Source: Flavobacterium marginilacus (GTDB taxonomy: Bacteria; Bacteroidota; Bacteroidia; Flavobacteriales; Flavobacteriaceae). Taken from it: a DNA stretch of 64,000 bases. The stretch spans positions 3,720,001 through 3,784,000 of the forward strand of contig NZ_CP113975.1 in the NCBI RefSeq assembly GCF_026870155.1, written 5' to 3'. Both the position numbers and the translations under genes were made by a program. Below the pieces are notes generated by a model. That model had not been told where the DNA came from and did no database searches. It saw only the letters and a program-made list of their open reading frames with translations. This document shows positions 15,795 to 51,028 of the stretch, piece by piece; the stretch's first letter is position 1, and each line of letters starts with the position of its first letter.

Positions 15795-16832
15795 ATGAAC
15801 TGGAAAGCACAAGCCATTACGCACAAAAAAGAAAAACGGATAGCCGTTTATTTTGAAAAAAATGCCGATTTAATAACTAGAATCAAACAATTAGATGGAG
15901 CCCGATGGAGTCAGACTTTAGGTGTCTGGCATTTACCGGATACTGAAGAAAACCGGATCAGGTTCAAAATCCCTACCCTATTCCCGACTATTCCTTCTGC
16001 TGAAGGGATTGAAAACATAGAAAAATTCAAACAATGGCTTCGCTCCAAACGTTATAGCGAAAATACACTTATTACTTACAGCGAAGCCTTGAAATCGTTT
16101 TTGATTTTCTATCGGGAAAAACCAATTGCTGAAATCACCAATGAAGATATAACGATCTTCAATAACGAATATATTTTAAAAAATGATTTGTCAGCTTCTT
16201 ATCAAAACCAAATTATCAATGCTGTTAAATTATTTTTTCAAACTATTCGGGAAACCAAAATTGAGATTGATAAAATTTACCGTCCCAAAAATGCAAAAAG
16301 ACTGCCTAATGTTTTGAGTAAAGAAGAAACCTTTAGGCTTATTGATCTGACGGCTAATATAAAACATAAAACCTTATTGGCTTTAATTTACTCTTCCGGA
16401 CTCCGCATCAGTGAAGCTATAAACATGAAAATCATTGATGTTGACAGTCAAAGAATGCTGATTCATATTAAAAATGCAAAAGGCAAAAAAGACCGGTACA
16501 CCTTATTATCTAACAGAGTTTTAGGATTACTGCGTGAATATTACACTATTTATAAACCTAAAACCTTTTTATTTGAAGGACAGCATGGCGGTCAATACAG
16601 TAGCAGAAGTGCTCAATCAATATTACAGCAATCTGCAAAAAAGGCTGGAATTACAAAACCGATTAGTCTGCATACCCTTCGCCATAGTTTTGCCACCCAT
16701 TTATTAGAAAGCGGAACCGATTTACGCTACATTCAAGATTTATTAGGACACAATAGTCCCAAGACAACAATGATATATACCCACGTAAGCAGTACATCGC
16801 TGAAAAAAATCATAAACCCTTTCGATATGTAA
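15795..16832 (+). CDS. Integron-integrase-like tyrosine recombinase
   Basis: 345 aa, intact. A 70-residue N-terminal extension with ARWSQTLGVWHLP is not part of a standard Xer/IntI protein. Then a SAM-like core-binding domain (about 72-155) and the catalytic domain with Arg204 (SGLRISEA), Lys229, His293/Arg296 (HTLRHSFATHLL), His319 (LLGH) and nucleophile Tyr328 (TTMIYTHV). TTMIYTHV is typical of IntI, but the ~20-residue insertion that IntI carries between box I and box II is absent, so by sequence it sits between XerC/D and IntI. It lies directly before the attI-like site and array, and is co-directional with the cassettes, unlike most integrons but as in the 'reversed' type. It is the natural candidate for moving the cassettes; that is inference from position and catalytic residues. 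Confidence 0.85.
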   Translation: MNWKAQAITHKKEKRIAVYFEKNADLITRIKQLDGARWSQTLGVWHLPDTEENRIRFKIPTLFPTIPSAEGIENIEKFKQWLRSKRYSENTLITYSEALKSFLIFYREKPIAEITNEDITIFNNEYILKNDLSASYQNQIINAVKLFFQTIRETKIEIDKIYRPKNAKRLPNVLSKEETFRLIDLTANIKHKTLLALIYSSGLRISEAINMKIIDVDSQRMLIHIKNAKGKKDRYTLLSNRVLGLLREYYTIYKPKTFLFEGQHGGQYSSRSAQSILQQSAKKAGITKPISLHTLRHSFATHLLESGTDLRYIQDLLGHNSPKTTMIYTHVSSTSLKKIINPFDM

Positions 16833-16850
16833 GAAATAATTTTAAATTTG
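16820..16850 (+). promoter_or_regulatory. Candidate array promoter (Pc-like)
   Basis: TTTC at 16820-16823, 19 bp, TAAATTTG at 16843-16850. The second element fits the Bacteroidota -7 TAnnTTTG and the spacing is canonical; the first is one base off TTTG. It overlaps the recombinase stop and points into the first cassette, where an integron Pc would be. Confidence 0.45.
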
Positions 16851-16896
16851 TGCAAAGCGAATAAAAATAAAATGCATAAGTTAAACTAAAAACATG

Positions 16897-16958
16897 CGCA
16901 TAACATACCAATTGAGAATAAAAAGAGTTGGCTTTATTCGTGTATAAGATAGTTATGC
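16897..16958 (+). other. attI-like primary recombination site
   Basis: The junction core GTTATGCC starts at 16952, and GCGCATAAC lies about 55 bp upstream as an imperfect partner. Two small hairpins lie between (GAATAAA...TTTATTC; CCAATT...AGTTGG). The core equals the first bases of cassette 1, whose own end carries GGCATAAC, so 16952/16953 is where cassette 1 joins the platform. It lacks the long conserved hairpin of the attC sites, as expected of attI. Confidence 0.65.
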
Positions 16959-17019
16959 CTCAGTTCAACAGAACTGACGCAGAAAAAAGAACGTTTTTCA
17001 TAATACTTAAATTTAAAAG

Positions 17020-17529
17020 ATGATTAAAAAGGCAACAGCATCATTAATGTTACTCTTATGTTTTTATTCTTGCGGTAAACAAGAAGCAAGTACCGTAACA
17101 CCAGAACCAAAATACGAGTACGACCCAAATTCTGAACAATATTCAAAAGCTTCAGATACTTTATCACAGTATGAAAACACAGTCGTAAAAAAAGCAGAAC
17201 CAACGACCGATGAACAATTTGAAGTATATCATTATATATACTCTAATGGGAATGTTACAAAAGCAGAAGTTAATGTACTCTTTGTTGATGGCAAAAAAGA
17301 CGAATTACAAATAATTATTGATAAGCCTGATGGACAAAGTGCTGAAATTAATCTTATTAATCCAGTAAGTTTAGGTATGATAAAAGGGATGGATAGCTAT
17401 ATATACACCTCTCCTTCTGACAATAATAAACAAGTGAACGTGTTTTTTCATAATGGACGTAAAATGATGGGTATGACTTTAGGTAACCAAAGTGTTGTTT
17501 TTATGAATACTCCAAATTACAAGGAATAA
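17020..17529 (+). CDS. Cassette 1 lipoprotein, hypothetical
   Basis: 169 aa. Lipoprotein signal with lipobox FYSC-G at about 18-22, then a low-complexity linker (EASTVTPEPKYEYDPNSEQ) and a beta-rich domain ending MTLGNQSVVFMNTPNYKE. No family recognised. First gene of the first cassette (16953-18220), the position nearest the candidate Pc; 14 bp before the second gene. Confidence 0.75.
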   Translation: MIKKATASLMLLLCFYSCGKQEASTVTPEPKYEYDPNSEQYSKASDTLSQYENTVVKKAEPTTDEQFEVYHYIYSNGNVTKAEVNVLFVDGKKDELQIIIDKPDGQSAEINLINPVSLGMIKGMDSYIYTSPSDNNKQVNVFFHNGRKMMGMTLGNQSVVFMNTPNYKE

Positions 17530-17543
17530 TAAAGTATAATTTT

Positions 17544-17984
17544 ATGGAACTCGAAATATTAGACGCTCTTTTAAAATATCTCAAAGACACTAACCATAAT
17601 ACATTCCAACACATAAAAAGTGATGTCAAAAATAAATCTGCATTTTTAAAAGAAATTGATGACAAAACACTTTATTCCGCTTTATTGAAATTAGTTAAAG
17701 ATGATTATGTTTATGAAGATTTTCAAAAAATGGGCACATTAAGTGGTAACTTATATAATATATCATTTGAAGGGCTTTCATTTATTGCCGAGGGCGGTTA
17801 TGTTTCACGAAAGGAAAGAAACCAATCACAGGATAAAAAACTGAACGATATTGCAATTGTACAATCTTTTCAGCAAAAGTGGATTCATCGCTTGACTTGG
17901 ATAATAGGGCTTGGGACTTTGGTTGCAGGTGTATATTATCTGATAGAGATTTTAAAGTTTTTTGGCGTTTTAAAAGCCTGTTAA
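17544..17984 (+). CDS. Cassette 1 winged-helix-like protein with C-terminal membrane helix
   Basis: 146 aa. The N-terminal ~90 residues look like a small winged-helix domain (DDKTLYSALLKLVKDDYVYED, then a beta wing NLYNISFEGLSFIAEGGYV). One hydrophobic helix near the C-terminus (RLTWIIGLGTLVAGVYYLIEIL). The same architecture appears in the minus-strand gene of cassette 13. Function unknown. Confidence 0.7.
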   Translation: MELEILDALLKYLKDTNHNTFQHIKSDVKNKSAFLKEIDDKTLYSALLKLVKDDYVYEDFQKMGTLSGNLYNISFEGLSFIAEGGYVSRKERNQSQDKKLNDIAIVQSFQQKWIHRLTWIIGLGTLVAGVYYLIEILKFFGVLKAC

Positions 17985-18093
17985 AATTAAATAAGTTTTC
18001 AAAAGAGATCATAATATTAAAGTTTAAATTGTGTTTCTGACTTTAAAATGGTGCAGAAACTAAACCGAAAATTGGAATAAATAAAGAACCGAA

Positions 18094-18226
18094 GGCATAA
18101 CAGCCACTACAACGGATTTGGGCAATTGGCTTAATGGAAAAATGGTTTTGTATTTGAAAGATTTTGCAAATCCGAAAACAGGGCTTAATTTAACCCCAAA
18201 CCCGCTGTAGTGCCAAGACGTTATGC
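18094..18226 (+). other. attC site, cassette 1
   Basis: R'' GGCATAAC at 18094-18101 pairs with the cassette's own first bases GTTATGCC at 16952. Hairpin arms GCCACTACAACGGATTTGGG and CCCAAACCCGCTGTAGTGCC. Crossover CG^TT at 18220/18221. Confidence 0.85.
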
Positions 18227-18747
18227 GTAATTGGCAGTAGACTACGGAGTTTCTTGCACAATGAATTTTCGGGATATTTTTTTTGTGATTTTAAAGAATA
18301 AAGCATTTAGGCTTCAAGTCTTTCGATTGGGAATCGTAGAAAGTTCACTTTCAATACGTTTGACAACGTACAAGACTTGGCTAAGTTATTAAAAATAAAT
18401 GACAAAGTCAATACATAGGATAAATCATTTAGTTTCACTAACTTAAAATCACAAAAAAATAGAGCCCTAAAAGCCCATTATTAACTTCGCCTAGCAGGTT
18501 TGCTAAGCACAATAAATAATTTGGTTTCATTGATTTTGATTGCGGTTAGAAAAGATAAGATAGTCTATCCAACTCCGTTACTGAGTAAAAATATAGATTG
18601 TAAATAGATCAGTAACTACGCATAACACGGGCTAAGCAAAATGCCTTCCGCTTCTATGGATAAAATAGTACAAATTAAAAAATTTGGCTATTTTAGCAAT
18701 TATTAGTGAAGCGGGCTAAAGAAGGCACTTCGCCTAGCCCGATCACG
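18221..18747 (+). other. Cassette 2: ORF-less 527-bp type A cassette, copy 1
   Basis: No credible ORF. Starts TTATGCGTAATTGG, R'' TACGCATAAC at 18617. Its attC (18617-18753) differs from all coding cassettes: arms CGGGCTAAGC and GCCTAGCCCG with inner pairing of TGCCTTC to GAAGGCA. The body has a hairpin CTTTCGATTgggAATCGTAGAAAG (about 18320), GCCTAGCAggttTGCTAAGC, and an isolated TACGTTTG resembling a -7 element. Candidate roles are a promoter or small-RNA cassette; neither is proven. Confidence 0.85.
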
Positions 18748-18779
18748 TTAGCGGTAATCCTACAAAAAACGAAATTACG

Positions 18780-19238
18780 ATGAAATCAAAAATTTTCGGA
18801 GATTTAAAAGAAACTGAATATGATTCCGATTGGTTGGAAGCTTCTCCTTTAGAAATTCCATATTTTAGTAATGAAAAAATAAAAATTACATTAGTAGAAA
18901 AAGATTCTGAATATATTCAAAATGCAGAAATAGCCTTTGAAAATTTTTTGAAATTAACGGAAACTGATAAAAATAAAGATTCAGAAAAAGTATATGAATA
19001 TTATGCAGAAATTCTAAAAGCGGGTTATACGAAAAACCTAAACTTGAAAACTAAAAGTGAAATATGGAATTTCGTTACAGTTGGAGAAATAGTTTTGCAT
19101 TGGAGTGAAAATGGAACAATATATTTATGTGTTTCTTGTGAATGCGAATGGGAAATTGAACACGGATTACAATTATCATTTAAAAATGGAGAAAAGCTTA
19201 TAAAAGCAAATTCACATTCAGATGATTTTGAAGAGTAA
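18780..19238 (+). CDS. Cassette 3 protein, DUF6985-like (copy 1 of 2)
   Basis: 152 aa, soluble. C-terminal CVSCECEWEIEHGLQLSFKNGE resembles the DUF6985 group of small proteins often found beside toxins, recalled from memory and not certain. Cassette 18748-19391. An identical protein in an identical 644-bp cassette lies at 29139-29597. Confidence 0.72.
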   Translation: MKSKIFGDLKETEYDSDWLEASPLEIPYFSNEKIKITLVEKDSEYIQNAEIAFENFLKLTETDKNKDSEKVYEYYAEILKAGYTKNLNLKTKSEIWNFVTVGEIVLHWSENGTIYLCVSCECEWEIEHGLQLSFKNGEKLIKANSHSDDFEE

Positions 19239-19262
19239 ATAATCAGAATAAATAGAAAGGAC

Positions 19263-19397
19263 TACCGCTAACAGCCGTTTGTAGCAATTGGGGTTTTAGG
19301 CTGAATTTAAAGATGGTTTTGTACTTGGAAAATTGTGCATAATGGAAAAATCTCGCATCTTTAATCCCCAACTGCTACAAGCGCCAGAACGTTATGC
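19263..19397 (+). other. attC site, cassette 3
   Basis: R'' TACCGCTAAC matches own start GTTAGCGGTA at 18747. Arms GTTTGTAGCAATTGGGG and CCCCAACTGCTACAAGC (second arm family). Crossover 19391/19392. Confidence 0.85.
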
Positions 19398-19918
19398 GTA
19401 ATTGGCAGTAGACTACGGAGTTTCTTGCACAATGAATTTTCGGGATATTTTTTTTGTGATTTTAAAGAATAAAGCATTTAGGCTTCAAGTCTTTCGATTG
19501 GGAATCGTAGAAAGTTCACTTTCAATACGTTTGACAACGTACAAGACTTGGCTAAGTTATTAAAAATAAATGACAAAGTCAATACATAGGATAAATCATT
19601 TAGTTTCACTAACTTAAAATCACAAAAAAATAGAGCCCTAAAAGCCCATTATTAACTTCGCCTAGCAGGTTTGCTAAGCACAATAAATAATTTGGTTTCA
19701 TTGATTTTGATTGCGGTTAGAAAAGATAAGATAGTCTATCCAACTCCGTTACTGAGTAAAAATATAGATTGTAAATAGATCAGTAACTACGCATAACACG
19801 GGCTAAGCAAAATGCCTTCCGCTTCTATGGATAAAATAGTACAAATTAAAAAATTTGGCTATTTTAGCAATTATTAGTGAAGCGGGCTAAAGAAGGCACT
19901 TCGCCTAGCCCGATCACG
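19392..19918 (+). other. Cassette 4: type A cassette, copy 2
   Basis: Same 527 bp as 18221-18747 with no difference seen by eye; attC at 19788-19924. Lies between cassettes 3 and 5. Confidence 0.88.
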
Positions 19919-19967
19919 TTAGTGGCAAGCGTTGAAGAACGTTCAACATAGAAATCCAACTTAAAAA

Positions 19968-20699
19968 ATGGAGAAAGAAAAAAAATACACGATTACACAA
20001 GAAGAAACTCAAAATCAAAAGTCAAAAAACCAGTTTTCAAATATTTGGAAAGATTCTGTTTTTAGTAAAGTAATAGCTAATGGAATTTTACTTTTATTTA
20101 CATTGTTAGCCATAATTATTGGTCAATTAATTAATGTTTCAACAGCAGAAGAGTTTATCAAGTATTTTTTCAATTTTGAAGTTAAACTATATGTATTATT
20201 GCTCACTGCAGGAATTATATTCATTGGATATTACTTATATTTAAAATTTTTGAAAAAGAAAGATGACGGTTATAAATCATTTTTATCTCAAATAGTTGGC
20301 GATTATAAATTTGCTAATTTGAATAATATCCTATTGACATCATATGAAGAAATACCACCTGTTTTGCAAAAAGAAATGGGTTCAAAAGAGTTAGATTTAT
20401 TAACTCTATTTAAAATAACAATTCCTCTTTACAGTTCTGGAATGGATTGGGATAATACTAACGACGAATCTGGATTTTTATATTATAGATTAGGTCCAAG
20501 GTTAATAAGTTACGGACTTTTAGAAAGAGTACCTTCTATTGACAATAATACAGAAGGAAATATAAATGCGTTTACAATTCAACCAAGTCAAAACGGTTTC
20601 AAATTTTTTGCTCTACTCGAAAGCTTTGAAAGAATTGAAAACTCAGAAAGCTATGAAAAAGAGTTTGATGAAAGACAGAAAAAAAACGCCAGCCACTAA
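19968..20699 (+). CDS. Cassette 5 membrane protein, hypothetical
   Basis: 243 aa. Charged N-terminus, two membrane helices (about 38-56 and 72-93), then a ~150-residue soluble domain (LPPR-free, with GSKELDLLTLFKITIPLYSS). No family recognised. The stop codon TAA is the TAA of the attC R'' box GCCACTAAC, so gene and recombination site overlap. Cassette 19919-20820. Confidence 0.75.
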   Translation: MEKEKKYTITQEETQNQKSKNQFSNIWKDSVFSKVIANGILLLFTLLAIIIGQLINVSTAEEFIKYFFNFEVKLYVLLLTAGIIFIGYYLYLKFLKKKDDGYKSFLSQIVGDYKFANLNNILLTSYEEIPPVLQKEMGSKELDLLTLFKITIPLYSSGMDWDNTNDESGFLYYRLGPRLISYGLLERVPSIDNNTEGNINAFTIQPSQNGFKFFALLESFERIENSESYEKEFDERQKKNASH

Positions 20700-20826
20700 C
20701 AGCCGTTTGGCGAGATTGGGGTTTTAGGCTTAATGGAAAGTTGGTTTTGTATTTGAGAAATTTGTGTTTAACCGAAAAATCTCGCATCTTTAATCCCCAA
20801 CCTCGCCAAGCGCCAGAACGTTATGC
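20692..20826 (+). other. attC site, cassette 5
   Basis: R'' GCCACTAAC matches own start GTTAGTGGC. Arms GTTTGGCGAGATTGGGG and CCCCAACCTCGCCAAGC; the second arm contains CCTCGCCAAGCGCC, the intact form of the site interrupted by the IS110 element at 39957. Confidence 0.85.
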
Positions 20827-21347
20827 GTAATTGGCAGTAGACTACGGAGTTTCTTGCACAATGAATTTTCGGGATATTTTTTTTGTGATTTTAAAGAATA
20901 AAGCATTTAGGCTTCAAGTCTTTCGATTGGGAATCGTAGAAAGTTCACTTTCAATACGTTTGACAACGTACAAGACTTGGCTAAGTTATTAAAAATAAAT
21001 GACAAAGTCAATACATAGGATAAATCATTTAGTTTCACTAACTTAAAATCACAAAAAAATAGAGCCCTAAAAGCCCATTATTAACTTCGCCTAGCAGGTT
21101 TGCTAAGCACAATAAATAATTTGGTTTCATTGATTTTGATTGCGGTTAGAAAAGATAAGATAGTCTATCCAACTCCGTTACTGAGTAAAAATATAGATTG
21201 TAAATAGATCAGTAACTACGCATAACACGGGCTAAGCAAAATGCCTTCCGCTTCTATGGATAAAATAGTACAAATTAAAAAATTTGGCTATTTTAGCAAT
21301 TATTAGTGAAGCGGGCTAAAGAAGGCACTTCGCCTAGCCCGATCACG
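20821..21347 (+). other. Cassette 6: type A cassette, copy 3
   Basis: Same 527 bp as cassette 2; attC at 21217-21353. Confidence 0.88.
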
Positions 21348-21779
21348 TTATAGGGCAGTTGTGCCGAAATTACGCAGATAAAAACAATTTGAAAATAAGC
21401 ATTTGTTTCCGCAGGAAGTTTACAAAGCAGAAGCGTGAAAATTGGAATGGAAATGCGGAAACTTGAAAGTTGGAATGGAAATGTGAAAGCTTGAAAAGCA
21501 GAAGCGTGAAAGTTGGAACTTGTCTACAGAAACTTGAAAAGTAAATAATTGAAAATAATAAACCGAAAAGCAGAAACGCAAAAATTGGATTTTGCCAACA
21601 GAAGCGTGAAAGTTTTAGGTGAAAAACCGTAATTTCGACAAAAACAACCGCCCTATAACACTTGCTACAAGAGATTTGGGCATTTGGCTTAATTTAAAAA
21701 TAGTCTTGTATTTGGGAAGTTTAGGCAAATCCGAAAATAAGGCTTAATTTAACCCCAAACCTCTTGTAGCAAGGGAACG
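21348..21779 (+). other. Cassette 7: ORF-less 432-bp type B cassette, copy 1
   Basis: No credible ORF. The body is built of degenerate ~20-bp units (GCAGAAGCGTGAAAGTTGGA and variants). Cassette ends are complementary over more than 25 bp: GTTATAGGGCAGTTGT...CGAAATTACG at the start against CGTAATTTCG...ACAACCGCCCTATAAC at 21630-21659. attC 21650-21785 with arms CTTGCTACAAGAG and CTCTTGTAGCAAG. Confidence 0.85.
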
Positions 21780-21793
21780 TTGGTGGTAACCGT

Positions 21794-22666
21794 ATGAAGA
21801 AGACAACGAACATATTAACATTAGTAATTTTGACGATAATTTTGGGTTGTGGACAGACCGCAAACCAAGACGGAAATTCTATTACTAAAAATGACAGTAT
21901 TCCAAAAACAACCTCTAAAAACGAGCTAACGAAAGAAGAAAGACAAAAACAAATTGAAGAAGATAATAGAATTGATAGCTTACGTCTTAACATAGCATTA
22001 AAAGACGCTTTCAAAATTGCACAAACAGAATTCAAAACTGATAATTTCAAAAAAGAATACGAAATTCAACCTGATGACAGTTCCTACACAATCAAAATAG
22101 AAATTTTAATCGGCAGACTTTTCAAAGACAATCAAAAGTATTTTCTATTACGCAGACACATTCCTTGGGCAACTTACCTTGACTTATACAAAGTACAAGA
22201 CGACAAAGCTGAACAACTTATTAACAGAGAACAAGACGGAATGACTTATATCCGAGACACAATATTTGATGCAAATGGAGACGGACATAAAGACTTTCTT
22301 GTTCATTGGTATCCTTCTTCAGGTTGTTGTAGACGTGACGTTTACAATGTTTATTTAAACCAACCCGACAAAGGAAATTTTACTAATGACTATGAATTTA
22401 TCAATCCGACATTTTCAGCGAAAGAGAAAATAATTCGTGGCGTAGAATATGGACACCCCGGAGAAGTAGGACTTTATAAGTATAAATGGAATGGACTTCA
22501 AGTCGATACAATTGAATTCATTTATCCAGATGCAAACAATAAAGGACAATTTATCAAAACAAAAAAAGGAACATATAGACCGACAGAAAAGGAGGGCGTT
22601 GTTTTAAAAACAGTTCCAAAGGAGTATCAAAAAATTGAAAGCTATGAATGGTTTTCGGACTTTTAA
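21794..22666 (+). CDS. Cassette 8 lipoprotein with DxNGDGxKD calcium-loop motif
   Basis: 290 aa. Lipobox ILGC-G at about 13-17, a Lys/Glu-rich linker, then a globular domain with DANGDGHKDFLVHWYP, an EF-hand/FG-GAP-like acidic loop, and a CC pair (SGCCRRD). Function unknown; surface-exposed or periplasmic. Cassette 21780-22817. Confidence 0.78.
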   Translation: MKKTTNILTLVILTIILGCGQTANQDGNSITKNDSIPKTTSKNELTKEERQKQIEEDNRIDSLRLNIALKDAFKIAQTEFKTDNFKKEYEIQPDDSSYTIKIEILIGRLFKDNQKYFLLRRHIPWATYLDLYKVQDDKAEQLINREQDGMTYIRDTIFDANGDGHKDFLVHWYPSSGCCRRDVYNVYLNQPDKGNFTNDYEFINPTFSAKEKIIRGVEYGHPGEVGLYKYKWNGLQVDTIEFIYPDANNKGQFIKTKKGTYRPTEKEGVVLKTVPKEYQKIESYEWFSDF

Positions 22667-22687
22667 CTAACTGACGACAAGAACGGC

Positions 22688-22823
22688 TACCACCAACCGT
22701 CGTTTGGCAATATGGCGGGATTAGGCTTAATTTGAAGATGGTTTTGTACTTGGAAAATTAGTCATTAACCGAAAGATTAGGCTTCCTTAGTCCGCCACAT
22801 CGCCAAGCGACCAAACGTTAGTG
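22688..22823 (+). other. attC site, cassette 8
   Basis: R'' TACCACCAAC matches own start GTTGGTGGTA. Arms GTCGTTTGGCAATATGGCGGG and CCGCCACATCGCCAAGCGAC, a variant pairing. Confidence 0.82.
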
Positions 22824-23546: not shown

Positions 23547-23553
23547 ATTGCCA

Positions 23554-23689
23554 GCCACTAACACTTGCTACAAGAGATTTGGGCATTTGGCTTAATTTGA
23601 AAATGGTCTTGTATTTGGGATGTTTTGGCAAATCCGAAAATAAGGCTTTAATTAAACCCCAAACCTCTTGTAGCAAGGGAACGTTATAG
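23554..23689 (+). other. attC site, cassette 9
   Basis: R'' GCCACTAAC; arms CTTGCTACAAGAGATTTGGG and CCCAAACCTCTTGTAGCAAG with the single A/C mismatch typical of this arm family. Crossover 23683/23684. Confidence 0.87.
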
Positions 23690-23721
23690 GCTATACTACC
23701 AAAAATCGTAAGAAGAAAAAT

Positions 23722-24255: not shown

Positions 24256-24263
24256 AAAAGTAC

Positions 24264-28975: not shown

Positions 28976-28976
28976 C

Positions 28977-42842: not shown

Positions 42843-42846
42843 AACC

Positions 42847-42982: not shown

Positions 42983-43503
42983 GTAATTGGCAGTAGACTA
43001 CGGAGTTTCTTGCACAATGAATTTTCGGGATATTTTTTTTGTGATTTTAAAGAATAAAGCATTTAGGCTTCAAGTCTTTCGATTGGGAATCGTAGAAAGT
43101 TCACTTTCAATACGTTTGACAACGTACAAGACTTGGCTAAGTTATTAAAAATAAATGACAAAGTCAATACATAGGATAAATCATTTAGTTTCACTAACTT
43201 AAAATCACAAAAAAATAGAGCCCTAAAAGCCCATTATTAACTTCGCCTAGCAGGTTTGCTAAGCACAATAAATAATTTGGTTTCATTGATTTTGATTGCG
43301 GTTAGAAAAGATAAGATAGTCTATCCAACTCCGTTACTGAGTAAAAATATAGATTGTAAATAGATCAGTAACTACGCATAACACGGGCTAAGCAAAATGC
43401 CTTCCGCTTCTATGGATAAAATAGTACAAATTAAAAAATTTGGCTATTTTAGCAATTATTAGTGAAGCGGGCTAAAGAAGGCACTTCGCCTAGCCCGATC
43501 ACG
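42977..43503 (+). other. Cassette 30: type A cassette, copy 5
   Basis: Same 527 bp as cassette 2; attC at 43373-43509. Confidence 0.88.
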
Positions 43504-43534
43504 TTGGTGGCAATAATTCACAAATATCACTAAA

Positions 43535-44356
43535 ATGAAACCATTAGAATTCTCACACATATTTGTTATCGAAAGTTTGCGTCCAGAAGATGAGCTTACA
43601 GGAACCAGATTGTTTAATCGAGCGATATATCCTGGAATGGCCAACAAGAATTTGGAAGCTAACTGTGACCATATTACCGTTGTTTCCAAGCAGGATTTTT
43701 TTAATGCAATTTCAAGTATAAGAACCAAAGTAATATCAGAGAATATTTCTCCGATAATCCATCTTGAAATGCACGGCTCGAAAACTGGATTACAACTCAC
43801 TAGTTACGAAAGAATAACTTGGGAAGAATTGCAACCAATATTGATTGAACTAAATGTTCTATGCAAGAATAATTTATTCTTAACAATGGCTACATGTTTT
43901 GGTGGCTACATATACAACGCAATATCTCCAAAACTTCAAGCTCCTTTTTGGGGATTTGTTGGACCTTTCGATAAGGTTGATGAAGATGAAGTTTTAGCAG
44001 ACTTTACAAACTTCTATTTTGAGTTTCTTAATACATTAGACCTAAATGTCGCTGAAACTGCTCTACATAGACAAAATGCACCAAATGCTTCAAAATTTAG
44101 ATTCCAAAATACTGAATTTGCCTTCAGAAAAGTCTACAACAACTATGAACAAAATCATTTAACTCCTGAACGCATTGAAGAAAGACTTATGCAAGTAGAA
44201 GAAGAATTCCGAAAAACTAGAGAATATCAGGATTGGTCATCCAAGAAGATTAAAGACTTTGCCAGAAGTATAATTGTGGATCAAAATGATGCAATTAAAG
44301 AAAGATTGATGACGCGATTCTTTATGCTAGATATATACCCAGAACTAAGAGAATAA
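43535..44356 (+). CDS. Cassette 31 caspase-like (clan CD) protein with His/Cys dyad
   Basis: 273 aa, no leader. IIHLEMHGSKTGLQLTS (His80-Gly) and FLTMATCFGGYIYNAI (Cys121) follow strands as in the caspase/CHAT fold, with ITWEELQPILIELN in between, as in many bacterial caspase-like effectors. The C-terminal ~100 residues are charged and helical. Predicted cysteine protease; possible defence effector or stress protease. The fold call is from motifs only. Cassette 43504-44496. Confidence 0.65.
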   Translation: MKPLEFSHIFVIESLRPEDELTGTRLFNRAIYPGMANKNLEANCDHITVVSKQDFFNAISSIRTKVISENISPIIHLEMHGSKTGLQLTSYERITWEELQPILIELNVLCKNNLFLTMATCFGGYIYNAISPKLQAPFWGFVGPFDKVDEDEVLADFTNFYFEFLNTLDLNVAETALHRQNAPNASKFRFQNTEFAFRKVYNNYEQNHLTPERIEERLMQVEEEFRKTREYQDWSSKKIKDFARSIIVDQNDAIKERLMTRFFMLDIYPELRE

Positions 44357-44366
44357 TTAATATTAC

Positions 44367-44502
44367 TGCCACCAACACTTGCTACAAGAGATTTGGGCAT
44401 TTGGCTTAATTTAAAAATGGTCTTGTATTTGGGAAGTTTAGGCAAATCCGAAAATAAGACTTAATTTAATCCCAAACCTCTTGTAGCAAGGGAACGTTAG
44501 TG
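44367..44502 (+). other. attC site, cassette 31
   Basis: R'' TGCCACCAAC matches own start GTTGGTGGCA. Common arms. Confidence 0.86.
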
Positions 44503-44515
44503 GTTATGCTAGAAA

Positions 44516-45166
44516 ATGAAGAACTTTATGAAAATACCGAATAAAACAAAACTTATCTTCTTTTTAGTTTTCTGTTCTTTAAAAATTATCGGACAGAATA
44601 AAATTGCGGTTACTAAAATTGATATAAACAAAATTCCAAAAGAAGTTAAATATAACGGTAAAGTTAAAAACGTAATAACTTGGAATGACAAATTAGGCGA
44701 AAACTTTGTCTTGACTTGTGAAACAGGAGAATTTAAAACCAAAAACTCAGAAAATGACGGTCGTGATTCTGAAATTTACGCATATCATTACATTCGTTCT
44801 AAAAGCGGTATTAAACAGAATTGGAAAATATACGATTTCGTAAAGGATTGTCCTGTCGATATTGAAGCTAGTTTCTTGAAAAACACATTGACTATTACAG
44901 ACTTAAACAATGACGGAATTGGCGAAATTTGGATAATGTACAAAACCGCATGCACCGGTGATGTAAGTCCTTGCGAAATGAAAATTATAATGTACCAAGA
45001 AAAATTAAAATTAGCAATGCGAGGTCAAAATCGTGTAAAAGTTTCGGATAAAGAATATTATGGTGGAAATTACACTTTTGACAAAGCATTTAATGAAGCC
45101 CCAAATTATTACAGAGATTACGCAAAAAGATTGTGGAATAAAAATATAAATCAGAAATGGCAATAA
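44516..45166 (+). CDS. Cassette 32 exported protein, M949_RS01915-like family
   Basis: 216 aa. N-terminal leader (LIFFLVFCSLKIIGQ). DLNNDGIGEIWIMYKTAC and MKIIMYQEKLKLAMRGQN recall a flavobacterial family annotated in databases as surface-polysaccharide-related (M949_RS01915); from memory and not certain. The DxNxDGxxE loop suggests calcium binding. Cassette 44497-45301. Confidence 0.62.
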   Translation: MKNFMKIPNKTKLIFFLVFCSLKIIGQNKIAVTKIDINKIPKEVKYNGKVKNVITWNDKLGENFVLTCETGEFKTKNSENDGRDSEIYAYHYIRSKSGIKQNWKIYDFVKDCPVDIEASFLKNTLTITDLNNDGIGEIWIMYKTACTGDVSPCEMKIIMYQEKLKLAMRGQNRVKVSDKEYYGGNYTFDKAFNEAPNYYRDYAKRLWNKNINQKWQ

Positions 45167-45170
45167 GCAC

Positions 45171-45307
45171 AACCACTAACACTTGCTACAAGAGATTTGG
45201 GCATTTGGCTTAATTTTAAAAATGGTCTTGTACTTGGGAAGTTTTGGCAAATCCGAAAATAAGGCTTAATTTAATCCCAAACCTCTTGTAGCAAGGGAAC
45301 GTTAGGC
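45171..45307 (+). other. attC site, cassette 32
   Basis: R'' AACCACTAAC matches own start GTTAGTGGTT. Common arms. Confidence 0.86.
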
Positions 45308-45366
45308 GTCACTTTAGCGGAAATCGTGAAAATACATTTTGTAATTTCAATATAACAAATTGAAAA

Positions 45367-45858
45367 ATGAAAAGAATATTATTGATTTTAATGATTTTAT
45401 TGTTTCTTAACTGCGCAAAGAAAGTGGAAAAAGAGAAAAGCTTTGAACCAACTATACTTCTAAAAGAAATAATTAAAAATGAAAGAGTTAAAAATATAAT
45501 TTGGGATTTTAGACTCACTAATATTGAAATTAATCGAAGTGGAAAACAAAACAAAAAATATGAAGTATTTCGTAACGAATTAACTGAAGAAGAATTAATA
45601 CAAATCACAGAATGTGAAATTCCTTTGTTACGCTGTATTGCTTTTAAAACTTTAGTCGAAAGAGATTACATAAATATTAGAAAAATATTGAATAAACATA
45701 AAAATGACAATGATTTAGTTAAAGGACATTATTACGACGTACTTAGAAGCGAACAAGTTAAAAGCTTTATGTTAAATCAATTAAGTCCATTTTCGAATTC
45801 AGAATTTAAATTTTCAAAAAAAGAGTTTACGAAACTACAAGATGAATTTTATAAGTAG
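45367..45858 (+). CDS. Cassette 33 lipoprotein, hypothetical
   Basis: 163 aa. Leader MKRILLILMILLFLNC-A. The helical mature part includes TECEIPLLRCIAFKTLVERD, reminiscent of HEAT-like repeats (proteins of this kind lose one helix pair per repeat). Uncertain. Cassette 45302-46011. Confidence 0.7.
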   Translation: MKRILLILMILLFLNCAKKVEKEKSFEPTILLKEIIKNERVKNIIWDFRLTNIEINRSGKQNKKYEVFRNELTEEELIQITECEIPLLRCIAFKTLVERDYINIRKILNKHKNDNDLVKGHYYDVLRSEQVKSFMLNQLSPFSNSEFKFSKKEFTKLQDEFYK

Positions 45859-45882
45859 AAATTAATTACACGAAAAAAAGCG

Positions 45883-46017
45883 AACGCCTAACAGCCGTTA
45901 CAAGAGATTTGGGTATTTGACTGAATTTAAAAATGGTTTTGTACTTGGAAAATTTGGCAAATCCGAAAGATTACGCATTCTTAATCCCAAACCTCGTGTA
46001 GCGCCAGAACGTTATAG
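45883..46017 (+). other. attC site, cassette 33
   Basis: R'' AACGCCTAAC matches own start GTTAGGCGT. First arm GTTACAAGAG, second arm CTCGTGTAGCG: one mismatch, a blend of arm families. Confidence 0.82.
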
Positions 46018-46443
46018 GGCAGTTGTGCCGAAATTACGCAGATAAAAACAATTTGAAAATAAGCATTTGTTTCCGCAGGAAGTTTACAAAGCAGAAGCGT
46101 GAAAATTGGAATGGAAATGCGGAAACTTGAAAGTTGGAATGGAAATGTGAAAGCTTGAAAAGCAGAAGCGTGAAAGTTGGAACTTGTCTACAGAAACTTG
46201 AAAAGTAAATAATTGAAAATAATAAACCGAAAAGCAGAAACGCAAAAATTGGATTTTGCCAACAGAAGCGTGAAAGTTTTAGGTGAAAAACCGTAATTTC
46301 GACAAAAACAACCGCCCTATAACACTTGCTACAAGAGATTTGGGCATTTGGCTTAATTTAAAAATAGTCTTGTATTTGGGAAGTTTAGGCAAATCCGAAA
46401 ATAAGGCTTAATTTAACCCCAAACCTCTTGTAGCAAGGGAACG
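46012..46443 (+). other. Cassette 34: type B cassette, copy 3
   Basis: Same 432 bp as 21348-21779; attC at 46314-46449. Confidence 0.87.
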
Positions 46444-46468
46444 TTACCTGCTATATCACATAACCAAA

Positions 46469-47050
46469 ATGAGAAAAACATTTCTAAAATTTCATATAAT
46501 TTCAGTTTCGTTCTTAATTGTAAATTTTTTATGTGGAAATTCTTTTGATATAAGTTTAAATTATAGAATTACATTATTTGTCAAAATATTATTTTATTTA
46601 TCCGGAATAGTTTTGTTTTTCTTTAATCTTAAACCATTTAAAAAAATTGCGTTTTATTTTTTGTTTTATCTTATTTCTCCCCTTTTACTTTTCTTTTCAA
46701 TACTAATTGACGGAATTTTTGGCGGAATCTTAATTTCATTTTTTGTGTTTTTCATCTCACCGCCCGACGTTAGATTTCAAGATGAAAATATTAAAATTTA
46801 TAAAGTTCATAGTGGATTGCTAGCAGGTTGCTGTCAATATGAAATTACTCAAAATGAATTCTTGCTTTTTGAGAAAAAAATTGGAGAATTTAGATTTGAG
46901 GAAAACCTACAATTCGAAAAGAGCAAAATAAAATATAACGACAAAAAACTAACTATAAAAATGTTACTGAAAGAATACAACGCAGAAACTGAAAATTACT
47001 ATGCTAAAGATTCTGTGATTAGTATTCCGCTAAAAAGATACAGCAGGTAA
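46469..47050 (+). CDS. Cassette 35 membrane protein, hypothetical
   Basis: 193 aa. Three to four hydrophobic helices in the first 105 residues, then a soluble domain starting FQDENIKIYKVHSGLLAGCC. The stop TAA lies in the R'' box AGCAGGTAAC, so the last codons are part of the recombination site. Cassette 46444-47170. Confidence 0.7.
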   Translation: MRKTFLKFHIISVSFLIVNFLCGNSFDISLNYRITLFVKILFYLSGIVLFFFNLKPFKKIAFYFLFYLISPLLLFFSILIDGIFGGILISFFVFFISPPDVRFQDENIKIYKVHSGLLAGCCQYEITQNEFLLFEKKIGEFRFEENLQFEKSKIKYNDKKLTIKMLLKEYNAETENYYAKDSVISIPLKRYSR

Positions 47051-47176
47051 CACTTGCTACAATAGATTTGGGCATTTGGCTTAATTTGAAAATGGTCTTG
47101 TATTTGGAAGATTTGGCAAATCCGAAAATAAGGCTTAATTTAACCCCAAACCTCTTGTAGCAAGGGAACGTTGTGC
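47042..47176 (+). other. attC site, cassette 35
   Basis: R'' AGCAGGTAAC matches own start GTTACCTGCT, the same core as cassette 13 although the genes differ. Confidence 0.85.
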
Positions 47177-47206
47177 GATATTTTGAACCGCCGTAAATCA
47201 TAAAAA

Positions 47207-47866
47207 ATGTTAGATATAAATGAATTCATAAATGCAATTTCAAAGTCCGTAGAGGAAATATTAGAAACGCAATTAAATATATTTCAACCTAAAAATGAAA
47301 TTGAAGACTATAAAAAGCTAATTTCTATTATAACTTTCTCTATTATTGAATCAATTGATAATCCAATTAATTTACAAGAAAAATTAATTGTGATTGAAAA
47401 TGAATCGTTTACAAAGCATTTAAATACTGAAAAGCTAAAAAACATATCTATCTTGTTGATAAACGCAAAAAATCAGCATCACTTTAACTTGTACAATAAA
47501 GCTAGAAAAGAAAAAAGAGAAAAAATAACTAAAGCATTAAAAGAAATTACAATTCCTTTTTTAAGAGCCAAAGGATTTAAAGGTTCATTCCCGAATTTTA
47601 AAAGAAATAATAACAATGATGTTCATTTACTAAGGTTTCTTTTTAGTCAGTTTGGTGCCCAATTTGCAGTTGAAATAGCAAAATCTAATATTGACAATAA
47701 AAACATATCATTTTTTAATGGACACCGATTAGGTAGTGAAAAGAATAAAAATGATTATTGGTATAATTATGAAAACACCGAAATTACTGAAGATATTTTT
47801 AACTTTAGGGCATCTGAAGTGATTGAAAATTGGAGTGAAGCTGAAAATTGGTGGACTGAGAATTAA
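47207..47866 (+). CDS. Cassette 36 DUF4304 domain protein
   Basis: 219 aa, soluble. N-terminal helical part (about 1-100), then a DUF4304-like domain: FLRAKGFKGSFPNFKRNN, VHLLRFLFSQFGAQFAVEIA. DUF4304 proteins are often immunity- or toxin-associated. Cassette 47171-48000. Confidence 0.75.
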   Translation: MLDINEFINAISKSVEEILETQLNIFQPKNEIEDYKKLISIITFSIIESIDNPINLQEKLIVIENESFTKHLNTEKLKNISILLINAKNQHHFNLYNKARKEKREKITKALKEITIPFLRAKGFKGSFPNFKRNNNNDVHLLRFLFSQFGAQFAVEIAKSNIDNKNISFFNGHRLGSEKNKNDYWYNYENTEITEDIFNFRASEVIENWSEAENWWTEN

Positions 47867-47871
47867 AAAAC

Positions 47872-48006
47872 ATCGCACAACAGCCGTTACACGAGATTTG
47901 GGCATTAGGCTGAATTTAAAGATGGTTTTGTACTTGGAAAATTTGGCAAATCCGAAAATAAGGCTTAATTTAATCACAAACCTCTTGTAGCAAGGGAACG
48001 TTATGC
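47872..48006 (+). other. attC site, cassette 36 (mosaic)
   Basis: R'' ATCGCACAAC matches own start GTTGTGCGAT. First arm GTTACACGAGATTTGGG is of the third family, second arm CACAAACCTCTTGTAGCAAG of the first, so the stem has extra mismatches. Confidence 0.82.
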
Positions 48007-48527
48007 GTAATTGGCAGTAGACTACGGAGTTTCTTGCACAATGAATTTTCGGGATATTTTTTTTGTGATTTTAAAGAATAAAGCATTTAGGCTTCAAGTC
48101 TTTCGATTGGGAATCGTAGAAAGTTCACTTTCAATACGTTTGACAACGTACAAGACTTGGCTAAGTTATTAAAAATAAATGACAAAGTCAATACATAGGA
48201 TAAATCATTTAGTTTCACTAACTTAAAATCACAAAAAAATAGAGCCCTAAAAGCCCATTATTAACTTCGCCTAGCAGGTTTGCTAAGCACAATAAATAAT
48301 TTGGTTTCATTGATTTTGATTGCGGTTAGAAAAGATAAGATAGTCTATCCAACTCCGTTACTGAGTAAAAATATAGATTGTAAATAGATCAGTAACTACG
48401 CATAACACGGGCTAAGCAAAATGCCTTCCGCTTCTATGGATAAAATAGTACAAATTAAAAAATTTGGCTATTTTAGCAATTATTAGTGAAGCGGGCTAAA
48501 GAAGGCACTTCGCCTAGCCCGATCACG
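48001..48527 (+). other. Cassette 37: type A cassette, copy 6
   Basis: Same 527 bp as cassette 2; attC at 48397-48533. Confidence 0.88.
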
Positions 48528-48537
48528 TTGGTGGTAA

Positions 48538-50188
48538 TCCCTCATAGTCCGCCTGCCTTACCTCCCGAAGCTAACGGCCATTGCATAAAAAATCAAAAAA
48601 ACATAAATTAGCTACGCTCATTGCAAGGCCGATTTGTAAACTGTTGCGTAATAGCACGAGTGTAATCCTGGTTGGGAAGTGTGTGATACCTCCAGTGGTG
48701 GTACATTTTTTTTGTAACCCCGATTAGAATATTTTATTTATCCGAAAGAACTTCCTCTTTGAGTATTTTTTTAATTTAAATGTTCAGAATCAGAATGAAA
48801 GAACAAAATCAAATTTTGATGGAGATTGTCAATCCTCAAGCAGCAGGAATAGACATCGGAAGCAGGAGTCATTTTGTAGCTATTGGTCAAAAAGAAGAAC
48901 ACGTAAGAGAGTTTGGTGTTTATAATGAAGACCTCAAAGCAATATCAGATTGGCTCAAAGGAAATGGCATCCAAACTGTAGCAATGGAAAGTACAGGCAC
49001 TTATTGGCAAGCATTATATGCTGTTTTGATAAACGATGGTTTTCAAGTGATATTGTGCAATGGAAAATTTACCAAAAACATCAAAGGAAAGAAAACCGAT
49101 GTACAAGACTGCCAATGGATACAAAAATTACATTCCATAGGCCTATTATCTGGAAGTTTTTTGCCAGATTTACAAACTGAACAACTCCGAACTTATTGCC
49201 GACACAGAGCCGGTTTAATTGATGTTGCTGCTGACACAAGCAAGAAAATGCAAAAATACCTTCGTTTACTCAACCTTCGTCTGGATATAATTGTTAAAGA
49301 TATTTGTGGTTTGACAGGACTTAAGATGATAGAAGCCATTTGTAATGGCGAAACTGATTCTCAGAAATTAGCCTCCCTGAGAAACGGAAACTGTAAAAAA
49401 AGTGAAGCAGAAATGCAAAAAGCACTCCAAAGCAACGGCCGTAAAGATTATCTATTTGCCCTAAAGCAGGAATACCAGATGTATCAAAATCTGCAAAATC
49501 AGATCAAAGACTGCGATATAGAAATAAAAAAATTACTTCAAGACCAGATTGACAGCAGCAACAATAAAAAGCAACATTACACGGATCCGAAAGTTCATAA
49601 AAGAGTTAATAAAAATACACCTAAAAATATTGATTTAAACCTCATTGGCTATCAATACTTCGAAGGAGTAGATTTATTAAAGATAGAAGGATTCAGCCAT
49701 CAAACCTTACTTACATTAATGAGCGAAGTGGGGTTAGAAGGGATTAAAAAATTCGGTACAGCCAAACAATTTGCAAGCTGGCTCAGACTTACTCCGAACA
49801 ATAAAATAAGTGGCGGAAAAGTACTCAGTTCTCGCGTGCCAAAAGGGAGTAACCGCTTGAAAATAGCCCTGAGGAATGCTGCCAATGCCATCGGAAATTT
49901 AAAAGAATCAACACCTCTGAGAGACTTTTTTCATCGAATTAATTTTCGAAAAGGAAGAGTATCTGCCATAAGCGCAACAGCAAGAAAATTAGGTATAATC
50001 ATTTGGAATATGATTGTAAAAAACACCTCCTACTATAATCCGGAAAATTACTTATATTTAGACGAAAAAAGAAAACTAGCGGTACAAAGAAGAATACAAA
50101 AACAAATGGAAAAACATCAATTCAAAGTCGATGATTTTAACTTTGTAACAATTTAGTTTTTAGATATTTACAAAAACGTTAGTTAGAA
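48538..50188 (+). mobile_element. IS110-family element, copy 2, in cassette 38
   Basis: 1651 bp, same ends and AA core as copy 1. The left flank is GTTGGTGGT but the cassette's far end (TACTACTGCTAA) predicts GTTAGCAGT; the right flank AATAACATACG does fit that end. Left and right flanks therefore come from different cassettes. The candidate bridge RNA region is 48538-48779. Confidence 0.85.
48780..50156 (+). CDS. IS110-family transposase (copy 2)
   Basis: 458 aa, same as the product of 30785-32161 except Thr for Ala in HYTDPK. Intact DEDD and Transposase_20 domains. Confidence 0.93.
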   Translation: MFRIRMKEQNQILMEIVNPQAAGIDIGSRSHFVAIGQKEEHVREFGVYNEDLKAISDWLKGNGIQTVAMESTGTYWQALYAVLINDGFQVILCNGKFTKNIKGKKTDVQDCQWIQKLHSIGLLSGSFLPDLQTEQLRTYCRHRAGLIDVAADTSKKMQKYLRLLNLRLDIIVKDICGLTGLKMIEAICNGETDSQKLASLRNGNCKKSEAEMQKALQSNGRKDYLFALKQEYQMYQNLQNQIKDCDIEIKKLLQDQIDSSNNKKQHYTDPKVHKRVNKNTPKNIDLNLIGYQYFEGVDLLKIEGFSHQTLLTLMSEVGLEGIKKFGTAKQFASWLRLTPNNKISGGKVLSSRVPKGSNRLKIALRNAANAIGNLKESTPLRDFFHRINFRKGRVSAISATARKLGIIIWNMIVKNTSYYNPENYLYLDEKRKLAVQRRIQKQMEKHQFKVDDFNFVTI

Positions 50189-50199
50189 TAACATACGAA

Positions 50200-50769
50200 A
50201 TGAGAGAAAATTCAGTCTTAAGTAGAATGTTTTGTATATTATTATCTTCTCTTTTTTTGATTAGTTGTGAAAATTCAACTCAAATAAAAGAAATTGAAAT
50301 ATTAACTTATTTTGATAATGCAAGAGATTTTCAAACTTATTCGAGCATTAACAAAAATGGATTTGCAGAAACTTTATTCAAATCAGAAACATCTAAAAAA
50401 ATTGATAATTGTCAAATGAGAATACGCAAAAGTTTATTAGATTCAATAATTGCAATTTGCAAAAATAAAAATGATGAAGATTTTATCTTTAAGAATTCAA
50501 AGCAAATACTATATTGTGGATTATCGAAAAATATAAGAATAACATATGAAAATAGAAAAACAATAACTTTTGCGTATCCATCTGCAAACAATGAAAACAA
50601 ACAATTTTTTCTATTTCAATCTTTGTTAAAACAAATCCAAAATGATTCTTTAAAAGCAACACGTCTAAATTTAAATCAAATTGGAAAAATATGCACAAAA
50701 CAAGAAGAATTTTCAAATATAATATTTAAAAAAGATTCAATATTTCTTATGAATTATTTGAAAAAATAG
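50200..50769 (+). CDS. Cassette 38 lipoprotein, hypothetical
   Basis: 189 aa. Leader MRENSVLSRMFCILLSSLFL with lipobox LISC-E. Mature part lysine-rich with ILTYFDNARDFQTYSSINK. No family recognised. Last cassette of the array; its attC is reduced to R'' TACTGCTAA at 50781-50789. Confidence 0.72.
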   Translation: MRENSVLSRMFCILLSSLFLISCENSTQIKEIEILTYFDNARDFQTYSSINKNGFAETLFKSETSKKIDNCQMRIRKSLLDSIIAICKNKNDEDFIFKNSKQILYCGLSKNIRITYENRKTITFAYPSANNENKQFFLFQSLLKQIQNDSLKATRLNLNQIGKICTKQEEFSNIIFKKDSIFLMNYLKK

Positions 50770-50788
50770 CGTAAAATTACTACTGCTA

Positions 50789-51028
50789 ATCGAGTAGACG
50801 GATCCGCCCCTAAAGGAACGGTGTGCGCCTCTCACACCACCGAGCGTCACGTACTCGGCGGTTCGCAAAGAGATGGGTTGAGTTCGATGTAAACATCGGT
50901 TAAGGATTGATAGCCACGGTGTTTGAGGCGTTTCAAAGTGATGGTGGTACTCAAAATCGGACTCTGTACAATTGCCCAGCCCCCTTTTCTCGTTCGGCTA
51001 AATACATAGGCATGACATACCACAATGG
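50789..51028 (-). pseudogene. Group II intron 3' remnant (C-terminus of reverse transcriptase plus ribozyme end)
   Basis: On the minus strand the frame reads AYVFSRTRKGGWAIVQSPIL then STTITLKRLKHRGYQSLTDV and stops at 50847, which resembles the tail of a group II intron-encoded protein. It is followed by GAACCGCCGAGTACG, GGTGGTGTGAGAGG and a 3' end CTACTCGAT. The 5' part of the intron is gone. The 3' end abuts TAGCAGTA, the bottom strand of the cassette 38 R'' box, in the orientation used by group IIC-attC introns. Confidence 0.8.

Follow-up and report, generated by a model that had tools for sequence, protein, structure and literature searches.

The attC sites of integrons have the R box consensus RYYYAAC and GTTRRRY, and dif is the single-copy site at which Xer recombinases resolve dimers. 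Here we analyze a 64,000-nucleotide stretch of the chromosome of Flavobacterium marginilacus (NZ_CP113975.1, positions 3,720,001 to 3,784,000; C1:3720001-3784000 in our numbering), called the window below and part of a 5.32-Mb genome. It carries a tyrosine recombinase gene followed by a long array of hairpin-bounded cassettes, which a preliminary description had called integron-like. We conclude that the locus is very probably a chromosomal platform for gene capture that functions in the manner of an integron and is run by a non-IntI, Xer-like family of tyrosine recombinases.

Several described systems come close. In canonical attC, extruded (extra-helical) bases favor the bottom strand, according to a passage of PMC2727003; an example of our own is at locus L105. 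Part of PMC3607928 describes Treponema integrons in which the recombinase is transcribed toward attI and the cassettes run in the same direction. Clusters of attC sites lacking integron-integrases (CALIN) are defined, in a section of PMC9668308, by at least two attC within 4 kb and no intI. Excerpts of PMC9024848 report a complete integron in Salinibacter ruber M1, and in them IntegronFinder 2.0 names this species as the one case of a complete integron in Bacteroidetes proper. A portion of PMC2426708 covers IntI of the Bacteroidetes/Chlorobi group, and Bacteroidota are among the phyla with integrons in a portion of PMC8618304. Elements of the IS1111 type that target attC are also known (a passage of PMC11187229).

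Results

The whole window was scanned for elements with an AAC start, a GTT end, and complementary inner arms. Among 41 rows, 36 are regular sites within 18099-48529, and the other five are at chance level (3 to 11 per shuffled window, 20 shuffles). All 36 intact sites lie on the plus strand, measure 124 to 126 bp, start with AAC, and end with ACGTT. We built one covariance model from the window's sites (R1) and a second from 65 sites at 17 of 20 loci of other genomes in the genus (R2). R2 gave 37 rows in the window, again all on the plus strand, namely, the 36 intact sites and a partial match at 39861-39956. Because this partial match is a site split by an IS110-type insertion sequence (IS) element, the 37 hairpin sites of the preliminary description hold, as do their CGTT ends; their length, given as 120 to 137 bp, is narrower. 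The 38 cassettes also stand, as 37 closed units (a unit being the stretch between two crossovers) and one open unit. Intact sites are spaced 432 to 2825 bp apart, plus 3587 bp across the IS-split pair. The latter interval resolves by sequence into ~2960 and 628 bp, in agreement with the unit sizes of 430 to 2960 bp first proposed. The array end had been set at 50789. However, the closed array stops at 48529, no R2 match lies beyond that point in the window, and the last unit, which starts at 48528, lacks a closing site.

The claim that each unit starts with bases complementary to its own end was borne out. Over 12 positions, a mean of 9.97 were complementary (34 window units, duplicates included), compared with 4.72 when ends were shuffled among units (maximum of 2000 shuffles, 5.85). 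For a profile by position, window duplicates were counted once, leaving 28 distinct units. Positions 1 to 6 pair in 26 to 28 of these, position 7 in 19, position 8 in 1, positions 9 to 12 in 21 to 25, and positions from 13 onward in only 3 to 7. For end and fold tests in other genomes we took loci with at least two sites, omitted a few weak rows, and used only sites with AAC and GTT ends; 69 of 85 consecutive pairs were close enough to keep (<1.6 kb). In these 69, positions 1 to 6 pair in 66 to 69, position 7 in 39, position 8 in 2, positions 9 to 12 in 48 to 57, and positions from 13 onward in 5 to 15. At least six of nine own-end positions match in 69/69 close pairs, and the same-site mean is 3.46 (n = 85). 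Because the ends covary across 0.4 to 3 kb, they must meet, which we infer to happen in an excised circle.

Some units are present as 100% identical copies in the window (527 bp six times, 432 bp three times, and 644 bp and 782 bp twice each), and their neighbors differ. Flanking the identical units, the shared bases come down to ACG at the left end and TT at the right end; the shared flank is longer, up to 18 + 7 bases, in pairs with like-type neighbors. Since shared sequence stops at ACG and TT, the exchange point is within ACG/TT (the slash marking the crossover), and the cassette boundary is resolved to these five bases. As in integrons, the cassette ends are complementary in the circle and the crossover is at or next to G/TT. 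The identical copies cut at ACG/TT, together with the own-end complementarity, indicate recent cassette movement, which may well be continuing today.

Homologous recombination between similar 125-bp sites might also reshuffle dispersed hairpin repeats, with no dedicated recombinase. The sites are indeed alike (mean column identity within the window, 73%), some are identical, they occupy many places in the genome, and 453-bp copies are found in tandem (see below). However, the copies stop at ACG/TT beside differing site types rather than anywhere in the repeat, covariation links 12 positions at the two ends of each cassette despite the distance between them, and sites adjoin one recombinase family in many genomes. 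We regard this explanation as very improbable.

An attI-like site had been placed between the recombinase gene and the first cassette. Such a site is present beside the gene, as in integrons, but its crossover fits best between G16952 and T16953, not at ACGTTTTTC near 16990. The attI GTT fits the end of the first cassette at 7/10 positions (next best, 5/10). In relatives (15 loci), the crossover lies 110 to 113 bp behind the recombinase gene in nine, 163 bp in two, and 87 bp in one; 3 of 16 loci gave no clear placement. attI is probably the usual entry point of new cassettes. By eye, the attI of some relatives contains a hairpin, which is absent from the window attI.

The tyrosine recombinase reported ahead of the array is real (15795-16832). 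Residues R204, K229, H293, R296, H319, and Y328, which we take to be catalytic, are invariant across aligned relatives. The named close relatives are Flavobacterium, and the genome has two further Xer-like genes, with 36% and 29% matches to the window protein. The top NCBIfam model is XerA-type, with 219.9 bits against a cut-off of 220. Just upstream of the gene, on the minus strand, is a Flavo-1 RNA (RF01705, 53.3 bits; 15638-15713).

The locus could also be a canonical integron, with a true IntI and true attC, in which only the host is unusual. The cassette logic is identical, the PDB entry for IntI4 ranks among the best matches of the recombinase, and the integron integrase model TIGR02249 matches it with 202.5 bits. 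Moreover, a passage of PMC8138268 describes incomplete conservation of the IntI insertion in its integron-like subgroup, and therefore insert-less members may have been seen before. However, the TIGR02249 match falls in two pieces and is under the cut-off of 265. From the KGKKDR motif to the HxLRH box, the window recombinase has 50 residues. This region measures 50 to 51 amino acids (aa) in 55/55 family members (a count in which three genus loci were not recovered by the filter) and 56 to 58 aa in two Xer proteins, compared with 92 aa in 20/20 canonical IntI of the same phylum. The additional domain of IntI is lacking in the recombinase family (0/55, versus 20/20). In a 53-row tree, for which every second IntI row and every second class row were taken, the family forms one group (99/91) and IntI another (100/99). 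Because just two long Xer rows were in the tree, its root, and hence sisterhood with IntI, is left open. The sites differ as well, with RYYYAAC in 2/36 and GTTRRRY in 2/36 window sites. In 133 kb surrounding eight canonical IntI and two Xer genes (two IntI contigs were short), R2 had no match at E ≤ 0.1, and a canonical attC motif scan of the eight IntI loci gave clear sites at L105 only. We regard a canonical integron as very improbable, if the least so of the alternatives considered.

As modeled, each site would have an outer arm of 12 positions with AAC and GTT, spacers of 1 and 5 nt, an inner arm of 20 positions, and a variable loop. The inner stem is ungapped over its 20 positions, with a constant non-pair at position 14. 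Read directly, this is A opposite C in 27/27 window sites and in 50/54 sites of other genomes (64 of 65 sites were supplied; 54 sites and 8 of 13 pairs passed the AAC and GTT filter). Outer position 8 is the second constant non-pair: in window units and others, respectively, Watson-Crick pairs are limited to 1/28 and 2/69, C is opposite A in 22/28 and 49/69, and G is opposite A in 5 and 14. On the bottom strand, T.G and G.T wobbles replace the A.C and C.A non-pairs; the reverse holds for inner position 5, a frequent top-strand T.G (40/65). In other genomes, inner-stem covariation scored 0.771, versus 0.181 ± 0.012 when shuffled, with 90.1% of cells paired, although fitting of the alignment to a related model favors the structure. 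All 19 of 19 inner-stem pairs have changes on both sides (shuffles, 16.5), and further pair types are not distinctive (52, versus 48.7 shuffled). Extra-helical bases in the 5' arm, a feature of integron attC, are absent from these sites.

For folding, window duplicates were again counted once (25 distinct units). Predictions for the circle form make the bottom strand the more stable one in 23/25 window units and 66/69 units of other genomes, and they make the circle form more stable than the array form in 25/25 and 68/69. The substrate may be a folded single strand.

As the preliminary description had proposed, we ran the covariance models on this and other Flavobacterium genomes. At home, R1 found 122 places at E ≤ 0.1 (150 of 7661 candidates scored). 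The sites are not limited to the locus: 87 further matches (E ≤ 0.001) lie outside the window in 19 fetched stretches. Hairpins scattered without a link to a recombinase had been named as evidence for ordinary repeats. The scatter is there, and many satellites are small or decayed, but the largest group is itself an array. This second array (28 sites, L046/L047) is 1.4 Mb away on the opposite strand of the same chromosome and has the same end logic. It includes exact copies of window units: 527 bp twice, 453 bp five times (two of them in tandem; the window has one), and 644 bp and 782 bp once each. Its attI is a near-identical paralogue of the window attI with a different first unit, the 782-bp unit, immediately at it. 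Its recombinase gene is a C-terminal remnant only, suggesting either loss of the enzyme at this array or action in trans. Like CALIN, other site clusters in the genome have at least two sites within 4 kb, here of the new type, and no intI.

Far from being special to one Flavobacterium genome, the sites were found by R1 in 50/61 genomes of the genus, and a close recombinase was found in 31/61. Sites occur in 28/31 genomes with the recombinase versus 22/30 without it (one-sided P = 0.027), with means of at least 12.9 and at least 5.2 matches, respectively. Eight site-bearing, recombinase-less genus genomes were checked, and they contained two short C-terminal remnants and one fuller distant relative. 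Across the class, which we took to be Bacteroidia, R2 matched in 134/198 genomes and 89/120 genera (a few being training genomes), and the recombinase was present in 98/198. Sites occur in 86/98 genomes with it versus 48/100 without it (Fisher P = 1e-9, ignoring kinship).

We also inspected 20 genus and 20 class loci of our choice from longer match lists. Sites lie downstream of the recombinase gene on the same strand at 15/20 genus loci; at two others a single weak match lies on the opposite side and strand, and three have none. The same arrangement is seen at 13/20 class loci, one (L169) is divergent, and the remaining six contigs end 0.1 to 1.4 kb past the gene. At L169, a 41% relative of the recombinase diverges from its array, which is the usual integron order; single weak matches at L082 and L083 and two at L205 would suit that order. 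Among 80 named loci around recombinase relatives from many phyla (phylum judged by title), R2 matched 12 at E ≤ 0.05. All 12 are from the approximately 28 Bacteroidota-titled loci and include Winogradskyella ursingii, Aquiflexum, and Alkalitalea saponilacus; loci titled to other phyla gave 0 matches. The left neighbor in the window, prfA, had no match in 40 fetched relative loci; therefore, the platform has no fixed address. In a phylum sample, canonical IntI exceeded the cut-off in 39/118 genomes and in 0/13 of those from the window's genus, family, and order. Four genomes outside the class with no IntI match listed (G118, G073, G082, and G093) have 10 to 19 R2 matches each.

Another enzyme that acts on folded DNA, such as the host XerCD or an IS110-type transposase, might move the cassettes, with the recombinase a mere passenger. 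IS110-type elements are in the array, one of them within a site, and sites occur in many genomes that lack a close recombinase. However, the crossover lies 110 to 120 bp behind the recombinase gene at 10/16 loci, sites and recombinase are associated across the class, and the IS breaks a site rather than bounding units. This explanation is very improbable, the least likely of the three.

On the Chryseobacterium plasmid NZ_CP041688.1 (L261), four R2 sites follow a full-length recombinase relative (59%) and share its strand; therefore, the system is also plasmid-borne. A second Chryseobacterium plasmid, NZ_CP094530.1 (L262), has a 58.8% relative and no R2 site in the fetched stretch. On the Flagellimonas plasmid NZ_CP092416.1 (L265), two R2 sites on the minus strand flank a gene annotated as a dihydrofolate reductase family protein, and the pair adjoins a divergent recombinase relative (45.8%). 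5'-truncated relatives lie just upstream of tet(X3) on the Acinetobacter plasmid NZ_CP041297.1 (L263; 52%) and of blaVEB-3 on the Klebsiella plasmid NZ_CP084417.1 (L264; 48%), the gene order expected of a recombinase and first cassette. At these two loci there was no R2 match and no convincing attI or cassette end, the best end match being 9/12, a score reached by 6/200 random starts. Recombinase relatives also occur in 16 phage records (best among the matches listed, 41.5%).

The cassette genes are mostly new to Pfam. Among 24 plus-strand, non-transposase open reading frames (ORFs) of the closed array that were scanned, five were above the curated cut-off (SUKH twice, a GmrSD restriction nuclease, DUF6985, and DUF4304). 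The GmrSD protein was the sole PADLOC match among 10 cargo proteins. The most copied unit is that of 527 bp, with eight copies in the searched stretches (window 18221-18747 and seven more). The copy at 18221-18747 has no ORF of at least 80 aa and no Rfam match at the gathering score. The unit or parts of it occur, at 73 to 97%, in 10 other genomes among 299 searched (own included). A second IS110-type transposase ORF is present in two copies (30785-32161 and 48780-50156), each near a unit start. Coordinates are collected in Table 1.

Table 1. Features of the cassette array and its surroundings, in window coordinates
Feature	Position	Strand	Evidence or remark
Tyrosine recombinase, 345 aa, putative cassette integrase	15795..16832	+	Pfam Phage_integrase 1.3e-40
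attI, outer limits approximate	16908..16966	+	crossover 120 bp past recombinase gene
Array of closed cassettes	16953..48527	+	arm scan, identical copies, R2, end matching
attC-like site 1	18099..18222	+	arm scan, R2
attC-like site 2, 527-bp cassette type	18624..18749	+	arm scan, copies, R2
attC-like site 3, 644-bp type	19270..19393	+	arm scan, copies, R2
attC-like site 4, 527-bp type	19795..19920	+	arm scan, copies, R2
attC-like site 5	20698..20822	+	arm scan, R2
attC-like site 6, 527-bp type	21224..21349	+	arm scan, copies, R2
attC-like site 7, 432-bp type	21657..21781	+	arm scan, copies, R2
attC-like site 8	22695..22819	+	arm scan, R2
attC-like site 9	23560..23685	+	arm scan, R2
attC-like site 10	24271..24395	+	arm scan, R2
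attC-like site 11, 782-bp type	25053..25177	+	arm scan, copies, R2
attC-like site 12, 527-bp type	25579..25704	+	arm scan, copies, R2
attC-like site 13	26611..26736	+	arm scan, R2
attC-like site 14	27349..27473	+	arm scan, R2
attC-like site 15	28309..28433	+	arm scan, R2
attC-like site 16	28984..29108	+	arm scan, R2
attC-like site 17, 644-bp type	29629..29752	+	arm scan, copies, R2
attC-like site 18, 782-bp type	30410..30534	+	arm scan, copies, R2
attC-like site 19	32677..32801	+	arm scan, R2
attC-like site 20, 432-bp type	33109..33233	+	arm scan, copies, R2
attC-like site 21	33775..33899	+	arm scan, R2
attC-like site 22	34407..34531	+	arm scan, R2
attC-like site 23, 453-bp type	34860..34984	+	arm scan, second-array copies, R2
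attC-like site 24	37686..37809	+	arm scan, R2
attC-like site 25	38143..38267	+	arm scan, R2
attC-like site 26, 3' arm split by IS110-type element	39849..41226	+	partial R2 match; boundary GTT 41224-41226
IS110-type transposase inside site 26	39991-40998	-	Pfam
attC-like site 27	41731..41854	+	arm scan, R2
attC-like site 28	42242..42365	+	arm scan, R2
attC-like site 29	42854..42978	+	arm scan, R2
attC-like site 30, 527-bp type	43380..43505	+	arm scan, copies, R2
attC-like site 31	44374..44498	+	arm scan, R2
attC-like site 32	45178..45303	+	arm scan, R2
attC-like site 33	45890..46013	+	arm scan, R2
attC-like site 34, 432-bp type	46321..46445	+	arm scan, copies, R2
attC-like site 35	47049..47172	+	arm scan, R2
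attC-like site 36	47879..48002	+	arm scan, R2
attC-like site 37, 527-bp type, final site of array	48404..48529	+	arm scan, copies, R2
Last, open unit, no closing site; right limit from the preliminary description	48528..50789	+	transposase ORF 48780-50156 and one further ORF; no R2 match

Discussion

We propose that the recombinase encoded at 15795-16832, the probable catalyst, would cut a cassette out as a circle in which the two cassette ends join to complete a long hairpin site. The bottom strand of the circle site would then fold and recombine within ACG/TT with attI or another site. In this way cassettes could be added at the array start and could also be passed to other arrays of the genome. 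By protein and site definitions, the system is not a member of the integrons. Rather, it appears to be a class-wide variant of the integron, with movement and catalyst deduced from sequence comparisons. The preliminary description had called the array superintegron-like and recently active. The array logic and the recent activity stand, but strictly speaking the array is no superintegron, since its recombinase is without the IntI additional domain and its sites are without canonical R boxes.

Several observations weigh against our interpretation. The R2 training sites were themselves found and aligned via R1, which makes R2 partly dependent on the window. In the home genome, several satellites are small, decayed, or without end logic, and at least six of nine own-end positions match in 47/67 consecutive pairs outside the window. 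Structure prediction for the recombinase gave a poor model (pTM, 0.38), and fold comparison was uninformative on the insert. In the array form, the strand bias is weak (bottom strand better in 15/25 window units and 52/69 others), and the isolated site, from AAC to GTT, has none (12/27). The bias is clear only once the circle junction is included in the fold. Genomes without a close recombinase carry sites (the 48/100 and 22/30 noted above), and 12/98 class genomes have the recombinase but no sites at the threshold used. Finally, R2 matched 59/118 genomes of the phylum sample, 35 of them outside the class, where by our count the matches were about equally frequent with and without canonical IntI (17/39 and 18/50, respectively). 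Therefore, either the model or the system extends further.

With a little more confidence than doubt, we favor the wider view that Bacteroidia possess a second integron system with its own equipment, namely, a Xer-like family lacking the IntI domain and folded single-stranded sites of another architecture, which has sites in the majority of class genomes and plasmid-borne copies. If so, it would be a main, so far overlooked gene-capture machine of a phylum that dominates in guts, soils, and water, and the IntI additional domain would not be the sole route to recombining folded cassette DNA. Integron surveys seek the IntI domain and canonical attC. Therefore, they would largely have passed over a system of this size with sites in 134/198 sampled class genomes. 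In the excerpts available from Creative Commons-licensed PubMed Central literature (preprints and most subscription journals being outside this scope), we recognized no description of it. The sites supply a searchable model. Furthermore, with the missing domain, the constant non-pairs, and an outer arm of 12 positions, a long-standing question becomes testable: what an integrase needs for recombining a folded single strand and how often that ability arose.

XerA, XerC, and XerD resemble the recombinase in its XerA-type best NCBIfam model and in having no IntI insert, but the family forms its own group in the tree. XerCD/dif differs in that arrays of many 125-bp sites are found here and not one dif. 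Compared with IS1111/IS110 elements that target attC, the array has a single such insertion, where an IS110-type element interrupts site 26 in its 3' arm. Site clusters elsewhere in the genome are CALIN-like, but their sites are of the new type, and one cluster has a recombinase remnant and attI. The Salinibacter ruber M1 integron and the Bacteroidetes/Chlorobi IntI belong to the same phylum in the wide sense, but the excerpts describe canonical IntI. Treponema integrons share the direction of recombinase and cassettes seen here, although the available text describes them as intI systems; this comparison is by description only. The closest likeness is to the sedentary chromosomal integrons of Vibrio and others. 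Like them, the array has a tyrosine recombinase gene, an adjacent attI, and tandem, mostly one-gene cassettes in one orientation, with many genes of unknown function. Hairpin sites, a crossover at or next to G/TT, cassette ends complementary in the circle, and a bottom strand predicted to form the better hairpin are also shared. However, the array here has no IntI additional domain and no RYYYAAC or GTTRRRY boxes. Its outer arm has 12 positions, compared with the 7-base R box. It has no extra 5'-arm bases, its 3' spacer is 4 nt longer, and it has non-pairs at outer position 8 and inner position 14.

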